Source: Lentisphaeria bacterium (GTDB taxonomy: Bacteria; Verrucomicrobiota; Lentisphaeria; Victivallales; Victivallaceae). From it: a stretch of 64,000 bases of DNA. Positions 6,550-15,745 of the stretch are shown in pieces (the first letter of the stretch is position 1; every line of letters starts with the position of its first letter). Location of the stretch: the NCBI GenBank assembly GCA_017504435.1, contig JAFVRD010000053.1, forward strand, positions 1 to 64,000. Direction: 5' to 3'. Under the pieces are notes generated by a model. The model did not search any database and was not told the origin of the DNA. It saw nothing but the letters and a program-made list of their open reading frames with translations. Position numbers and translations under genes: made by a program.

Positions 6550-8436
6550 ATGATCAATGATATGGCTTTGCGTTTAAGTGTCGCCGCGTTTGAAGGAATA
6601 TTTATTTTTGTTTTTCTGGCGGCACTGTTGCACCAGAGAAACAAAATCGGTGATTTCGCATTTGGCATGTCATTCTGCGCGGTGCTGTTTTTTGGATGTA
6701 TCGCCGCTGCTGCCGATTTGAAACTGCCGTGGCCGGGAGGTGTGGAAACTGATTTCCGCCAGACCGTCATCCAAATACCGCTGATGACACTATTTTTACT
6801 GACCTTTATATCCTGCGGTGTGTTAAAAAGCCAGCAATTGCTGATCGGTGCAGTTTGTGCGTATTTATTATTTATTTTCTTTTCAGCAAGTGTCAATCTG
6901 CAATGTTCTTTTCTGCCGGAAGACAATATCCGGGCAGTGATATTTCTGCTGCTTTCAAAAGTCAAAGATTCTGTCAATGTGAATGCTGTATGCAATTTGC
7001 TGGCATTTTTTACTGTCCCGATGTTTTATTCGGCATTTCCCAGATGGAAAATCCGTTTCTTTCAAATCGCTCTGGCACTGACCTGCGCTCAAACCGTGGC
7101 ATTGATTCCGGTAATGATCCTGAAAAATATCAACGGCGAAAAATTACTGATGTTTCATCCGGTAAATGCGATCGCATTGATCTCAATTCTGATAATGGCA
7201 CTGCTGCTGAGCATATATTTGCGGCTGCTCGGCAAAGAGCTGCCCATGCATAAATCCGGAGTTTTTGACTTCATGTTCGCATTTTTCGGCAGCTACAGCC
7301 GGGTAATGGAACTGGAAGAAGATTTGAGCCGTTGGGAAAACCGTTATCATCTCGTGCTGCAGCATACCGCCGATGCCGTGGTAATCTGTGATGTCACAGG
7401 AAAAATCACTGAAGCAAATATTGCCGCCGGAAAAATTTTTGCCAACGGCAATGCCGATATTCTGATCGGTAAGGAATTATATTCGCTTTTCACCCCGGAT
7501 ATCCCGCTGACTCCGGAACTTGCCGTATTGAAACCGCAATACTTCAACTGCTCTGTGAAATCCGGCAATACCGAAAAATACCTTTCTGCCTCCATAACTC
7601 CGGTACGTCTGAAAAAACAACTCCTGATGGTCATGGTCGCCAGAGATTTTACCGCCGAAAGAGTGCTCGCGGAAGAAAAAGAACAGCTTACTGAACAGCT
7701 TATTAATTCACAACGTATGGAATCTCTCGGCGTGTTGGCCGGAGGTATTGCCCATGACTTCAACAACTACATACACGCTATCCTCGGTCACGCCGATGTG
7801 GCAATGATGATCTCCGGCGATGACCGGGAAAAAGTCGAATCCCACCTGCGGAAGATCACTTCCATTGCTGAAAAGGCCGGTAAACTCACCTCTCAACTCC
7901 TCGGATTCGCCAGAAAAGGCAAATATCATATCGTGGAAATAGATATCAAAGAGTTGTTGGAGGATTGTACCGGTTTACTGGAACCGCTCCGGCTCCGGGA
8001 TATTTCGCTCCGCAGCAAAGAACTTAAACATGTCACCATCCACGGCGATCAGCTGCAAATGCAGCAGGTCGTGATGAATTTACTGATCAATGCTCTGGAT
8101 GCCGTTGAAAATGCACCGGATAAAATAATTTCATTAAGTTCCGGTTCTGCCGCCAGCGCACCGCTGCCTTTCAATCCGCCGCCGGACAGAAGTGATGCAC
8201 ACGCGGATGGATTCATCTACTTTGCGATCCGCGACAACGGCAACGGTATGAGCGAGGAAACCAAACGGAAAATATTTGAACCGTTTTTCACGACCAAACC
8301 GGTCGGTCAGGGTACCGGCATGGGGTTGGCGATGGTGTACGGAACCGTGACCCATCACAAAGGCTGGATAGAACTGGAAAGCGATCCGGAACACGGCACT
8401 TGCTTTTGCGTATTTCTGCCCGGACATACGGTCTAA
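6550..8436 (+). CDS. Multi-pass membrane PAS sensor histidine kinase
   Basis: The 628-residue protein starts with about six to seven hydrophobic segments (residues 1-230). A PAS domain follows (about 265-380, with ADAVVICDVTGKITEAN), then a dimerisation/phosphoacceptor helix with His402 in GGIAHDFNN and an HATPase domain (NLLINALDAVENAP, RDNGNGMS, GQGTGMGLAMVYG). It lacks a receiver domain and no response regulator gene is adjacent. It begins 3 bases after gmhB and probably shares its transcript. Its stop overlaps the convergent OppF gene by 4 bases. The signal sensed is unknown. Confidence 0.9.
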   Translation: MINDMALRLSVAAFEGIFIFVFLAALLHQRNKIGDFAFGMSFCAVLFFGCIAAAADLKLPWPGGVETDFRQTVIQIPLMTLFLLTFISCGVLKSQQLLIGAVCAYLLFIFFSASVNLQCSFLPEDNIRAVIFLLLSKVKDSVNVNAVCNLLAFFTVPMFYSAFPRWKIRFFQIALALTCAQTVALIPVMILKNINGEKLLMFHPVNAIALISILIMALLLSIYLRLLGKELPMHKSGVFDFMFAFFGSYSRVMELEEDLSRWENRYHLVLQHTADAVVICDVTGKITEANIAAGKIFANGNADILIGKELYSLFTPDIPLTPELAVLKPQYFNCSVKSGNTEKYLSASITPVRLKKQLLMVMVARDFTAERVLAEEKEQLTEQLINSQRMESLGVLAGGIAHDFNNYIHAILGHADVAMMISGDDREKVESHLRKITSIAEKAGKLTSQLLGFARKGKYHIVEIDIKELLEDCTGLLEPLRLRDISLRSKELKHVTIHGDQLQMQQVVMNLLINALDAVENAPDKIISLSSGSAASAPLPFNPPPDRSDAHADGFIYFAIRDNGNGMSEETKRKIFEPFFTTKPVGQGTGMGLAMVYGTVTHHKGWIELESDPEHGTCFCVFLPGHTV

Positions 8437-9407
8437 ACGTTTGTCAAAGGATGCCAGCAGGCGCAGAACCGGCCGGCTTCTCCCGGCAATTCCTGTAAAA
8501 ACGGCTTCTCTTTGCGGCACTGCTCTGAAGCATAAGGACAACGGGGATGAAACGGACATCCTGCCGGAGGAGCCAGCGGCGAAGGCACATCACCGGTCAA
8601 ATGCGGCAGATGCCGGTCACGCTTATCCAGATTCGGCACTGCATTCAGCAACGCCTGAGTATACGGATGCCGGGGAGAAGCTGCCAATTGCCGCGACGGA
8701 GCCAATTCCACAGCATTGCCCAGATACATCACCATTATCCGCGTAGAAATATGTTCCACTACCGCCAGATCATGAGCAATGAAAAGCAGTGCTGTCCCCG
8801 ATTCTTTCTGAATATCCTGCAATAAATTTACGATTGAAGCCTGCACACTGACATCCAATGCGGAAACCGGCTCATCCGCTACAATAAATTCCGGTTCTGC
8901 CGCCAATGCCCGGGCAATACCGATGCGCTGACGCTGACCGCCGGAAAACTGGTGCGGATAACGGCTCAATGCTTCCGGAGACAAACCAACTTTTTCCATA
9001 AGTTCCGCCGCCCGTTCCAAACGCTGGCTGCGGCTGCCGGGAAAATGCAGGGCAATGACTTCATCCAATGCGGAAAATATATTCAACCGGGGATTCAGAG
9101 AACCATACGGATCCTGAAATATCATTTGAAATTTTTTCCGCAGTTCTTTAAGTTCTTTGCCGCGGGCAGTCACCAGATCTCTGCCGTCAAGCAGGATCCC
9201 GCCCCGGTAAGGCGTTTCCAGTTTGACCAACGCCCTGCCTAAAGTACTTTTGCCGCAGCCGGATTCTCCGACCAACCCCAGTGTTTCCCCTTTTTCCAGC
9301 GTAAATGATATCCCGTTGACAGCATAAAGATAACGCTGACGGCAAAATAACGGTGTTCTGACCTTATAACGCACCGCAATATCTCTGACTTCAAGCAGCG
9401 GGGTCAT
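8433..9407 (-). CDS. Oligopeptide-type ABC transporter ATP-binding protein (OppF/DppF family)
   Basis: Walker A (GESGCGKSTLGR), the ABC signature (FSGGQRQRIGIARAL) and Walker B (FIVADEPVSALD) are all present. The C-terminal oligopeptide-type extension carries the cysteine motif CPFHPRCPYASEQC. Such subunits normally energise peptide import with OppB/C/D, but none of those genes is next to it. The ATG at 9407 overlaps the stop of the phosphatase gene (ATGA) and is preceded by AGGAG, so I prefer it to the frame start at 9437. It may partner permease genes elsewhere. Confidence 0.88.
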   Translation of the reverse strand: MTPLLEVRDIAVRYKVRTPLFCRQRYLYAVNGISFTLEKGETLGLVGESGCGKSTLGRALVKLETPYRGGILLDGRDLVTARGKELKELRKKFQMIFQDPYGSLNPRLNIFSALDEVIALHFPGSRSQRLERAAELMEKVGLSPEALSRYPHQFSGGQRQRIGIARALAAEPEFIVADEPVSALDVSVQASIVNLLQDIQKESGTALLFIAHDLAVVEHISTRIMVMYLGNAVELAPSRQLAASPRHPYTQALLNAVPNLDKRDRHLPHLTGDVPSPLAPPAGCPFHPRCPYASEQCRKEKPFLQELPGEAGRFCACWHPLTNV

Positions 9408-10159
9408 AGGTGTTCCATCTCCTGCGCTCCGGCACATATCAATGACACATTGTCCCTTGCTCCGGCAAGCAGAGCTTCCCGCATCAGATTACCGGTAATC
9501 TGCCGTACCGTCATGGTTGAACTGAGTGCATTCAGCAACAACGGTTCAGGTGTCACCGAATAAAGCCCGTCTGAACACATCAGATAACGCGCCTGCGCCG
9601 GACGATCGGATATTTTGCACTCCACGTCCACATATTTTTGAGTCCCCAGTGAACGGCAGACAAAATTGCTGAATTCATCTTTAAGACCATGATGATTTCT
9701 GCCTTCTTTTATTCCCGGTCTGTGATCGGTGGATAATTGCCGGAAATGATGCTCATTTGCCGGGTCATAGACGTACAGACGGCTGTCCCCGGCAAAAGCA
9801 AAAATAATATGATCCAGGAAAAAAATCGCCGCAATGACCGTACATCCCATCGGACGTCTGCGCCGTTCGGCAAAATTGCGCTCAAAAATCCGGCGGTTGG
9901 CACTTCTCAAAGCATCCAGCAAAAATTTATCATCCCACTCCCTGACCGGTTTCATCCAGGCCGCATGAAGCAGTTCTTTGATGCAGATACGGCTGGCGAT
10001 CTCACCATTGCCGTGTCCGCCGATACCGTCGGCAATGGCACACAACACCGCTTCATCACCGGGACGGTCAATGATCAGAAAATTATCTTCATTATGTGAT
10101 CTGCCAGTGCCGATGTTGCTTTCACCGGCAACGGCAATATTGGCACAGTTGATATTCAT
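9404..10159 (-). CDS. PP2C-family Ser/Thr protein phosphatase
   Basis: This 251-residue metal-dependent phosphatase has the bacterial PP2C motif set: SHNEDNF, AIADGIGGHGNGE, FAGDSRLYVY, MCSDGLYSV and ARDNVSLI, covering the conserved metal-binding aspartates. It has no membrane segment, so it should dephosphorylate cytoplasmic Ser/Thr-phosphoproteins. No eukaryote-like kinase gene is in the window. It is transcribed divergently from the murC-like gene and is translationally coupled to the ABC ATPase downstream. Confidence 0.9.
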   Translation of the reverse strand: MNINCANIAVAGESNIGTGRSHNEDNFLIIDRPGDEAVLCAIADGIGGHGNGEIASRICIKELLHAAWMKPVREWDDKFLLDALRSANRRIFERNFAERRRRPMGCTVIAAIFFLDHIIFAFAGDSRLYVYDPANEHHFRQLSTDHRPGIKEGRNHHGLKDEFSNFVCRSLGTQKYVDVECKISDRPAQARYLMCSDGLYSVTPEPLLLNALSSTMTVRQITGNLMREALLAGARDNVSLICAGAQEMEHL

Positions 10160-10248: not shown

Positions 10249-11625
10249 ATGAAAGATTTACATTTTATCGGGATCGGCGGCATCGGCATGAGTGCGCTGG
10301 CAGCAGCGGCTGCCGATTGCAAGTGGACCGTCAGCGGCAGTGACCGGGGGGCAGATAAAAGTGAAAATGCCGCCATATTCAATGCATTAAAGAGCCGCAA
10401 CATCAAAATTTATCCCCAAAACGGTTCCCGCTTTGATGTGTCACCTTTACCGGAAGCATTGGTTTACAGCACCGCTATTGAAAATGACAATCCGGATTTT
10501 CTGGCGGCAGGCGAAATTCCCCGGCTGCACCGCTCTGAACTGCTCCGGATACTGCTGGATGAATTCAACCGGATTTCCATTGCTGTGACCGGAAGCTGCG
10601 GCAAAAGTACCGTCACCTGCTATCTCGCCGAAACGCTCACCCGTCTCGGTGCCGATCCGGTCATGATCTCCGGAGCGTTGGCAAAGCACTTCCGCACCCC
10701 TCAAAATGCCGGGAATTACCGGGGGGGAAACGGAAAATATCTGGTCTTTGAAGCTGACGAAAGCGATAAAAGTCTCCTTAAATACGGTGCTGATTATGCT
10801 TTGATCCTGAATATCGGTACCGACCATTATGATAAAGATGAATTGGCACGGGTGTTTGGAGAATTTCTTGCCCGCATACGTAAAGGAGCCGTTCTTTCCG
10901 GAGAAGTTTATCAGGCGGTGAAAAAATATATCCCTGCCGATTTGCCGATCCGGGTTCTGGATTTCCTGCCGCAGGATACGCTCGTAAAATATATCCCCGG
11001 AAACGGTTCTCCGGCTGCCGCATATTTCGGCGACGGCAGAAAACTCCAATTGCCGGCCCCGGGAAGGCACATGGCTGAAAATGCACTTTTTGTCCGCGCG
11101 CTGCTCAGTATGCTCGATTTTGATGACCGGCAGGTCATGACCACCCTGCCGGATTTTGACGGAGTGTGGCGACGCAACGATTTCGCCGGGAATACCGCCG
11201 CCGGAGCGCAGGTTTTTGATGATTACGCTCACAATCCGGAAAAAATCGTCTCATGTCTTGCCGGAATGCGCGAAAGATGCCGCGGCAGAATATTCGCACT
11301 CTTTCAACCGCACGGATACGGACCTTTCGGATTCATGCGGGATGCGCTTTTTGAAGCAGTCGATGCCTTTCTCAAACCGGATGACCGTTTCATCCTGCTG
11401 GAACCATTCTATGCCGGCGGGACTTCCAGTTTTTCACCCCATGCCGATGAGGTATGCGCCGGTTACCGGAAATCTGCTGCCGTTCCGGAGAAATACCTCT
11501 GTTTCGCCAATCGCAAAAGTGCAGGCGAATTCCTCATCTCACACGCCGGTAAAGATGATCTGATCGTAATCATGGGTGCACGGGACAATTCTTTGAGCGA
11601 TTTTGCACGTTCCCTGACCCGCTGA
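10249..11625 (+). CDS. murC: MurC-family UDP-N-acetylmuramate--L-alanine ligase
   Basis: This Mur ligase adds the first amino acid of the peptidoglycan stem peptide, using ATP, in the cytoplasm. The N-terminal UDP-binding segment HFIGIGGIGMSALA is typical of MurC, the central P-loop is GSCGKST, and FDGVWRRNDF with DDYAHNPEK matches the C-terminal region. At 458 residues it has normal length. It is not in a mur/fts cluster, and DDYAHNP differs slightly from the usual DDYGHHP, so a paralogous or Mpl-like recycling ligase cannot be excluded. Confidence 0.82.
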   Translation: MKDLHFIGIGGIGMSALAAAAADCKWTVSGSDRGADKSENAAIFNALKSRNIKIYPQNGSRFDVSPLPEALVYSTAIENDNPDFLAAGEIPRLHRSELLRILLDEFNRISIAVTGSCGKSTVTCYLAETLTRLGADPVMISGALAKHFRTPQNAGNYRGGNGKYLVFEADESDKSLLKYGADYALILNIGTDHYDKDELARVFGEFLARIRKGAVLSGEVYQAVKKYIPADLPIRVLDFLPQDTLVKYIPGNGSPAAAYFGDGRKLQLPAPGRHMAENALFVRALLSMLDFDDRQVMTTLPDFDGVWRRNDFAGNTAAGAQVFDDYAHNPEKIVSCLAGMRERCRGRIFALFQPHGYGPFGFMRDALFEAVDAFLKPDDRFILLEPFYAGGTSSFSPHADEVCAGYRKSAAVPEKYLCFANRKSAGEFLISHAGKDDLIVIMGARDNSLSDFARSLTR

Positions 11626-11627
11626 AC

Positions 11628-11675
11628 GTGTCATGGCACATGTTTTATGTGTCACAGTGTGTCACTATGGCACAC
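11628..11675 (+). promoter_or_regulatory. Array of GTGYCA half-sites upstream of the dnaK promoter (candidate enhancer)
   Basis: Five copies of GTGTCA or its inverted form TGGCAC lie at 11628, 11634, 11649, 11659 and 11668. The first two form a near palindrome, and 11648-11656 is a perfect 9-nt palindrome. The array sits about 45-90 bp upstream of a -24/-12 element, the usual place for sites bound by sigma-54 activator proteins. The regulator is not known. Confidence 0.5.
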
Positions 11676-11715
11676 TTTTTTTATTTTTCAGTTGTTTTTT
11701 ACGCTGAAATCAATG

Positions 11716-11733
11716 TTGGCACGGTAATTGCTT
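11716..11733 (+). promoter_or_regulatory. Sigma-54 (-24/-12) promoter of dnaK-groES-groEL
   Basis: The sequence TTGGCACGGTAATTGCTT matches the TGGCACN5TTGCW consensus. The invariant GG (11718-11719) and GC (11730-11731) are exactly 10 bp apart. Transcription would start near 11743, leaving a leader of about 50 bases with AAGGAG before ATG 11793. I found no CIRCE repeat and no convincing -35/-10 pair here. Confidence 0.75.
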
Positions 11734-11792
11734 GAATGAATGGTGCTGAAAACAAACAATTATTAAACCTTTAAGAAAAAGGAGAAAAAATC

Positions 11793-13676
11793 ATGAGCAA
11801 GATCATCGGTATCGACCTCGGCACCACCAACAGCTGTATGGCAGTGATGGATAACGGCGAGTACAAAATCATCCCCAACGCAGAAGGCAACCGCACTACC
11901 CCCAGTATCGTGGCATTCACCAAATCCGGAGAACGTCTGGTCGGTCAGACCGCTAAACGTCAGGCAGTGACCAACCCCAAAAATACAGTCTTTTCCATCA
12001 AACGTCTGATGGGACGTAAATTCGCGGAAGTCGGCCGCGAACGGGAGCTCGTTCCTTATGAGATCGCAGAAGCACCCAACGGCGACGCCCATGTCAAAAT
12101 CGGTGATAAACTTTATTCGCCCCCGGAAATCTCTGCAATGATCCTTCAGAAGCTTAAAGCTGATGCAGAAGCATATCTCGGCGAAAAAATCACCCAGGCG
12201 GTCATCACTGTCCCGGCTTATTTCAACGACAGCCAGCGGCAGGCTACCAAAGATGCCGGCAAAATCGCCGGTCTGGAAGTCCTCCGGATCATCAACGAAC
12301 CCACCGCAGCTGCTCTTGCTTACGGTCTGGACAAAAAAAGTGATGAAACCATTGCAGTCTACGACCTCGGCGGCGGTACATTCGATATCTCCACGCTGGA
12401 AATCGGCGACGGCGTCTTTGAAGTGAAAGCCACCAACGGTGACACACACCTCGGCGGTGACGACTTTGACCAGGTCATCATCAACTACCTCGCTGATGAA
12501 TTCAACAAGGAAAACGGCGTTGACCTCCGCAAAGACCCGCAGGCACTTCAGCGGCTCAAAGAAGCTGCCGAAAAAGCCAAATGCGAATTGTCAACCAGCA
12601 TGTCCAGCGATATCAATTTGCCCTTCATCACCATGAATCAGTCCGGCCCGGTCCACATGAATATCACGCTGACCCGTGCCCAGCTGGAACGGCTCTGCGA
12701 TCCCTTGCTGGAACGCACCCGCAAACCCTGCGCGAACTGCATGAACGATGCTGAAGTTTCCGCTGACAAAATCAAAGAAGTCATCCTCGTCGGCGGCATG
12801 ACCCGCATGCCCAAAGTCCAGGAAACTGCCAAAGCGATCTTCAACAAAGAGCCTCACAAAGGTGTCAATCCGGATGAAGTCGTCGCCGCAGGTGCCGCAA
12901 TTCAGGGCGGCGTGCTGGGCGGTGAAGTCAATGACGTGCTGCTCCTCGATGTCACCCCGTTGTCACTGGGTATTGAGACCATGGGCGGCGTCATGACCAG
13001 ATTGATCGAACGCAATACCACCATCCCGACCAAAAAGAGCGAGATTTTCAGTACCGCGTCCGACAATCAGCCCGCAGTGGATGTCCGTGTGCTTCAGGGG
13101 GAACGTGAATTCGCCAGAGATAACAAATCCCTCGGTCTGTTCAAACTCGACGGTATTGCTCCGGCTCCCCGCGGCGTCCCGCAGATCGAAGTGACTTTTG
13201 ACATTGACGCCAACGGTATTCTGCACGTCACCGCCAAAGATCTCGGCACCGGTAAAGAACAGAAAATCACCATCACCGCATCCAGCGGTCTTTCCGAAGC
13301 TGAGATCGAACGGATGGTCAACGAGGCCAAAGCTCACGAAGCCGATGACAAAGCCGCTAAAGAAAAAGTTGAAGTTCACAACCATGCCGATTCCATGATC
13401 TACCAGTTGGAAAAACAACTCAAAGAGCATGGCGACAAAGTTCCTGCCGAAACCAAATCCGCTTTGGAAACTAAAATCGCTGCCCTCAAAAAAGATTTGG
13501 AAGCCGACAATACCGAAGCTCTCAAAAACGGCATGAAGGAACTTGAAGAATTGGCAATGAAACTCGGTGAAGCTGTCTACGCCCAGCAGCAGGCCAATGC
13601 TCAGGGAGCAGCTCCGCAGGATGCCCCCAATGCCAAAAACGATGACGGCGTTGTGGATGCCGAAGTCGTCGAATAA
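11793..13676 (+). CDS. dnaK: Chaperone DnaK (Hsp70)
   Basis: This ATP-dependent chaperone holds and refolds unfolded proteins with DnaJ and GrpE. The N-terminal [17 protein letters not shown], the ATPase segments [11 protein letters not shown] and [13 protein letters not shown], the [13 protein letters not shown]-type linker region and the C-terminal lid are all present across 627 residues. The C-terminus ends in an acidic DAEVVE tail. It leads a dnaK-groES-groEL operon, an unusual arrangement because dnaK more often sits with grpE or dnaJ; neither is in the window. Confidence 0.98.
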
Positions 13677-13735: not shown

Positions 13736-13752
13736 TGGCACACAATGTGCTG
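13736..13752 (+). promoter_or_regulatory. Second -24/-12-like element upstream of groES
   Basis: TGGCACACAATGTGCT has the TGGCAC half intact and GG (13737-13738) spaced 10 bp from GC (13749-13750). The -12 half (GTGCT) is weaker than consensus. A start near 13761 would leave a short leader with AAGGAG before groES. Confidence 0.5.
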
Positions 13753-13779: not shown

Positions 13780-14070
13780 ATGGCTGACATCAAACCGCTC
13801 GGCGATCGGGTTCTGCTCGAACTCAAAGAAGCAACCGAGGAAATGAATGGCGGGATCCTCATCCCCGATACCGCTAAAGAAAAACCCCAGGAATATGTCG
13901 TGGTCGCACTGGGCACCGGCAAAAATGATGACAAAGGCAACAAGATCCCCTTTGATGTCAAAGTCGGTGATATCGTACTGACCAGCCGTTACGGCGGCAC
14001 GGAAGTCAAAGTTTCCGGTAAAGAGTACAAAGTCGTCAATCAGGAAGATATCCTCGCCATCGTCGGCTGA
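13780..14070 (+). CDS. groES: Co-chaperonin GroES (Hsp10)
   Basis: This 96-residue protein caps the GroEL ring. It contains the family opening [11 protein letters not shown], the mobile-loop region [18 protein letters not shown], and a C-terminal region ending in [11 protein letters not shown] 13780 follows AAGGAG at the usual distance and gives normal GroES length; the longer frame from 13720 crosses the -24/-12-like element. It sits between dnaK and groEL on one strand. Confidence 0.97.

Positions 14071-14095: not shown

Positions 14096-15745
<1,650 letters not shown>

Follow-up and report, generated by a model that had tools for sequence, protein, structure and literature searches.

The window, by which we mean the whole 64-kb stretch of DNA analysed, carries on its plus strand dnaK (11793-13676), encoding a protein of 627 aa that matches NCBIfam PRK00290 with 1035 bits, followed by groES (13780-14070; assigned by translation) and groEL (14120-15745; 541 aa; assigned by translation, sequence and its position after groES). 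A probable ribosome-binding site, AGGAG, is located at 11780-11784 on the same strand. The gene upstream of dnaK, likewise on the plus strand, encodes a member of the Mur ligase family (10249-11625; Pfam). Further upstream are found a PP2C-type protein phosphatase on the minus strand (9404-10159), the end of which overlaps an ABC transporter gene (8433-9437), and a membrane PAS histidine kinase of 628 aa (6550-8436) with HisKA and HATPase domains and no receiver.

Scanning the 103-bp gap between dnaK and groES revealed no strong groES promoter. A separate sigma-54 promoter for groES was considered and rejected, the best site (13736-13751) reaching 10/12 but not being kept in relatives. Neither groES nor groEL showed a conserved promoter, and both are probably read through from the dnaK promoter, the three genes being read as an operon; groES may nevertheless have a separate upstream start.

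The sigma-54 promoter element upstream of dnaK

An earlier note on this DNA had pointed to a sigma-54 -24/-12 element some 60 bases before dnaK. The element, TTGGCACGGTAATTGCTT, lies at 11716-11733 on the plus strand and is conserved in aligned relatives. Its GG (11718-11719) and GC (11730-11731) are separated by the 10 bases claimed, and the dnaK ATG (11793) follows its end after 59 bases. All 12 fixed positions of the consensus TGGCACGN4TTGCW are identical. When the 167-bp intergenic region was dinucleotide-shuffled 20,000 times, 12/12 was attained once and at least 11/12 was attained 35 times. Within the 64-kb window, TGGCACGNNNNTTGCW is matched exactly at the dnaK site and nowhere else. 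The looser pattern TGGCACN5TTGCW has eight exact matches across the 2.26-Mb genome, the majority of them intragenic, and a consensus match by itself is thus not proof; it is position and conservation that make the case for a sigma-54 promoter of dnaK. Transcription from sigma-54 promoters usually starts about 12 nt beyond the GC of the -12 box, and for dnaK this spacing predicts a start at 11743 on the plus strand.

Concerning other kinds of control, a consensus scan of 11000-12200 found no sigma-70-type promoter, and no CIRCE element was present in the 64-kb window with up to three mismatches allowed, so that the earlier note's failure to see either a good -35/-10 pair or a CIRCE repeat is borne out. 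An Rfam scan of the window gave no matches.

For the comparison with relatives, loci were located by the first 200 residues of DnaK, and the DNA upstream of dnaK was then read. This DnaK-based search yielded few close relatives, but named Verrucomicrobia and outgroups. The taxonomic frame, Lentisphaeria-like and within Verrucomicrobiota in the GTDB sense, is based on those named records whose DnaK is nearest. Upstream of dnaK, all 48 further genomes of the family and 29 of 35 genomes from other families of the order have a site scoring 10/12 or better, the conservation among Lentisphaerota that the earlier note had proposed to look for. Shuffled DNA reaches this score in about 2% of cases, a fraction which, like the other shuffle fractions and the periodicity p-values given below, overstates the strength of the evidence, as relatives are not independent samples. 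When the 83 sites from family and order are aligned, TGGCA and TGC are invariant and the N4 is unconstrained, which is the exact pattern of a sigma-54 promoter.

The site extends well beyond the order. At the same threshold it was found in 7/11 genomes from other orders of the class, in 23/29 genomes from elsewhere in the phylum, and in 6/9 records named Lentisphaerae, Verrucomicrobia, Opitutaceae, Limisphaerales or Pedosphaera; the majority of another 29 genomes read from the phylum have a site as well. Not every family of the phylum has a good one (exceptions are, e.g., loci L243, L244, L275 and L333). Outside the phylum 7 of 69 dnaK genes reach 10/12, and the sites that look real there belong to FCPU426 (L127), Poribacteria (L096, L137) and KSB1 (L122). 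In several Opitutaceae-like and other members of the phylum (L331, L337, L342, L355, L359, L095, L099) the site lies 27-31 bases before the dnaK ATG; such a spacing would place the start at or beside the start codon and give a leaderless dnaK mRNA.

The dnaK promoter could also be a tandem one, with a conditional sigma-54 promoter beside a poorly recognisable sigma-70 or sigma-32 promoter providing the basal or heat-induced level, as at hrcA-grpE-dnaK of Chlamydia. Chaperones are required at all times, and tandem sigma-66/sigma-54 promoters are reported at Chlamydia hrcA (PMC7482065, PMC8762339). Against such an arrangement stand the lack of a sigma-70 pair by consensus, a kind of scan that can miss promoters of such lineages, and the aligned dnaK promoter region, which has no strongly conserved block beyond the -24/-12 box and whose remaining columns carry little information. 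We regard a second promoter as possible, though rather unlikely.

A conserved cluster of dyads

Between the Mur ligase gene and the promoter element, the tandem repeats at 11634-11674, overlooked in the earlier note, constitute a conserved cluster of 17-bp dyads of the form TGTGNCA-N3-TGNCACA. The main dyad, TGTGTCA-CTA-TGGCACA (11658-11674), a putative activator site, has its centre about 51 bp before the -24 box and matches this form at 12/12 positions, a score reached by none of 20,000 shuffles. Two weaker dyads, 10/12 each, overlap at 11648-11664 and 11650-11666, and a half-site TGGCACA (11634-11640) marks the upstream end of the cluster. In the own genome the dyad occurs between genes only at dnaK; the three other occurrences are all intragenic.

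A dyad of at least 10/12 precedes dnaK in 47/48 other family genomes and in 30/35 order genomes, compared with about 1% of shuffles. Facing pairs of half-sites are separated by N3 in 53 instances and by any other spacer in at most nine. The dyad centres in relatives lie about 50, 61, 73, 84, 94, 105 and 117 bp from the -24 box, that is, in steps of about 11 bp or one helical turn; counting unique positions only, the periodicity at 11 bp has p ~0.003, the p-values being otherwise inflated by relatedness. Phased spacing of this kind would be expected of activator sites. The best-kept part of the dyad is the inner CA-N3-TG, and a CA-N3-TG core is typical of NtrC-type sites. The isolated sites upstream of dnaK outside the phylum (L127, L096, L137, L122) are without TGTGNCA dyads.

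A terminator-like hairpin with T-run on the plus strand (11656-11676; z-score of the fold of 11620-11700, -3.6) occupies the same place as the main dyad. A sceptical reader might see in these inverted repeats no more than the intrinsic terminator of the Mur ligase gene, and only chance in the -24/-12 resemblance, and a stable hairpin followed by a run of T is indeed what a terminator looks like. Yet in relatives both the sequence of the dyad and its N3 spacer are preserved, several copies are present and a long T-run is usually missing; the promoter site is retained in 48/48 other family genomes. We consider this explanation highly improbable and reject the palindromes as a terminator alone; the hairpin may additionally end the transcript of the Mur ligase gene.

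The sigma-54 activator and its probable kinase

Both components that control through RpoN and an enhancer-binding activator would need, as the earlier note had supposed, are encoded in the genome. There is a single rpoN with AID, core-binding and DNA-binding domains, and one recognisable sigma-54 AAA+ activator (E 3e-65); the ~5% of the genome that is missing may encode another. The activator (G000:C37; locus L002, 1084-2505, minus strand), identified by domain search, has the make-up of an NtrC-family response regulator, namely REC, AAA (Walker A/B, GAFTGA-type loop) and Fis HTH. Its best NCBIfam matches are AtoC and ZraR, below every equivalog cut-off (AtoC, 448 of 714 bits). Orthologues with 51-76% identity are present in nearly all 80 genomes of the order, paralogues showing at most 48% and mostly at most 43%, and in a tree of the activators the orthologues form one well-supported clade (the rows marked 'other' from family f4 being orthologues). 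Twelve of the 80 genomes have one activator and no second, and the dnaK site is present in those that were read.

A soluble kinase with PAS, HisKA and HATPase domains (G000:C7; locus L030, 1752-2912) is present in one copy in 58/60 genomes, and its gene adjoins that of the activator in many. This conserved single-copy kinase being another gene, the membrane histidine kinase of the window (6550-8436) was dropped as partner of the activator. Just 5' of the soluble kinase gene a near-perfect dyad (at least 9.5/10 by that scoring) is found in 9 of 19 genomes, compared with 0.1% of shuffles. All nine have the kinase gene linked to the activator gene, and no such dyad was found in the five genomes in which the two are unlinked. 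A dyad upstream of linked kinase-activator operons is a signature of self-regulation and ties the regulator to the dyad. In many relatives the kinase and activator genes flank one for a xylose-isomerase-like TIM-barrel protein of ~305 aa (L301, L303-L309).

These data also bear on the possibility that sigma-54 drives dnaK and the dyads belong to another regulator, for instance of Crp/Fnr type, the activator acting elsewhere or from solution. The dyad does resemble TGTGA-N6-TCACA, Crp/Fnr-type sites likewise reading TGTG...CACA, and a strong sigma-54 site upstream of dapF (L010) is without such a dyad, though only one activator is known. However, the distance between the outer TGTG and CACA is 9 bp here and 8 bp in Crp sites, it is the inner CA-N3-TG that is best kept, as in NtrC-type sites, and the kinase-activator operon is itself preceded by the dyad, though only where the two genes are linked. 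Another regulator at the dyads is accordingly improbable in our estimation. At the L010 locus (1400-1740; G000:C48) sigma-54 sites diverge, a 12/12 site before dapF and TAGCACACTTTTTGCT before a type III glutamine synthetase gene; between them lie two TTTTTACA-N5-TGTAAAAA dyads and no dyad of the dnaK type, though only one activator was seen.

In the window's sublineage (activators L280-L283, of genomes G000, G054, G053 and G041) GAFTNA replaces GAFTGA in the loop that contacts sigma-54. The same change in NorR, G266N, renders activity fully constitutive (PMC2941729). As a lead, this suggests that dnaK regulation may be loose in this sublineage.

A proposed mode of dnaK control and its relation to known systems

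The DNA itself displays a promoter element, dyads at characteristic spacing and helical phase, the genes required together with their orthologues, and, before linked kinase-activator operons, the dyad again. From these we infer binding, phosphorylation, transcription, a signal and the operon reading. RNA polymerase with sigma-54 would wait at 11716-11733, and dnaK transcription would start near 11743. The REC-AAA-Fis regulator would bind the dyads at 11648-11674, be phosphorylated by the soluble PAS kinase, loop to the promoter and open it using ATP, and the transcript would probably continue through groES and groEL. The whole would stand in place of HrcA/CIRCE. We think it likely, with good confidence, that a sigma-54 dnaK promoter, a dyad-bound NtrC-type regulator and a PAS kinase replace HrcA/CIRCE in this way across the order and most of the phylum. 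Thus it is probably a single conserved two-component activator, and not the usual heat-shock regulators, that turns the chaperones on.

A sigma-54 promoter fires only when an activator is present and usually serves an optional function, and rpoN is normally dispensable. If the proposal is true, the main Hsp70 gene, and probably GroESL, are under sigma-54, and a different logic runs the chaperone response in the order and in most of the phylum, which includes Akkermansia-like and Opitutaceae members. The proposal yields a named regulator, a binding motif and predictions, namely that rpoN and the activator are essential or conditionally so, and that the signal of the kinase is chaperone demand. 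A bolder version, speculative and in our judgement probably not correct as a whole, sees in the two-component sigma-54 system the master control of dnaK-groESL in the phylum, both ancestral and essential, in place of HrcA. With such dedicated master control rpoN would be essential, and GAFTNA, constitutive in NorR as G266N, would turn the sigma-54 promoter into a housekeeping one in the window's sublineage.

The earlier note had called the design unusual and perhaps lineage-specific. Its sigma-54 control is supported, its stress or nutrient control is a conjecture, and restriction to a small lineage is not supported, since the site spans most of the phylum, and chaperone precedents exist. An HrcA-CIRCE regulon differs in both components: hrcA is absent from all 80 order genomes, the own included, control genomes being positive in the search, and no CIRCE lies near dnaK here. 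NtrB/NtrC, ZraS/ZraR and AtoS/AtoC likewise combine a REC-AAA-Fis regulator with a 17-bp CA-N3-TG dyad upstream of a -24/-12 element; the target here is dnaK instead of nitrogen, zinc or acetoacetate genes, and the kinase is soluble. In Myxococcus an NtrC-like regulator, that of HsfBA, is tied to a heat-shock gene as activator of lonD. The HsfBA phosphorelay is named in PMC9109919; its target differs from that of the present system. In Chlamydia, of a related superphylum, a sigma-54 site likewise precedes the hsp70 operon hrcA-grpE-dnaK, within the tandem sigma-66 and sigma-54 promoters of hrcA (PMC7482065, PMC8762339), but HrcA and CIRCE are retained there and the gene order is different. A 2025 survey predicted sigma-54 promoters at groES/EL, grpE, dnaJ and dnaK in Planctomycetota and Bacteroidota (PMC12316311); in the sections consulted the enrichment is given for these two phyla, Verrucomicrobiota is not named, and no activator site or regulator is given. 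A search of open-licence papers brought up neither the dyad nor the regulator, nor sigma-54 control of dnaK in the phylum Verrucomicrobiota or its phylum-wide conservation. Two-component activation of sigma-54 promoters is well known; what is new is its use for dnaK over such breadth, with HrcA absent.
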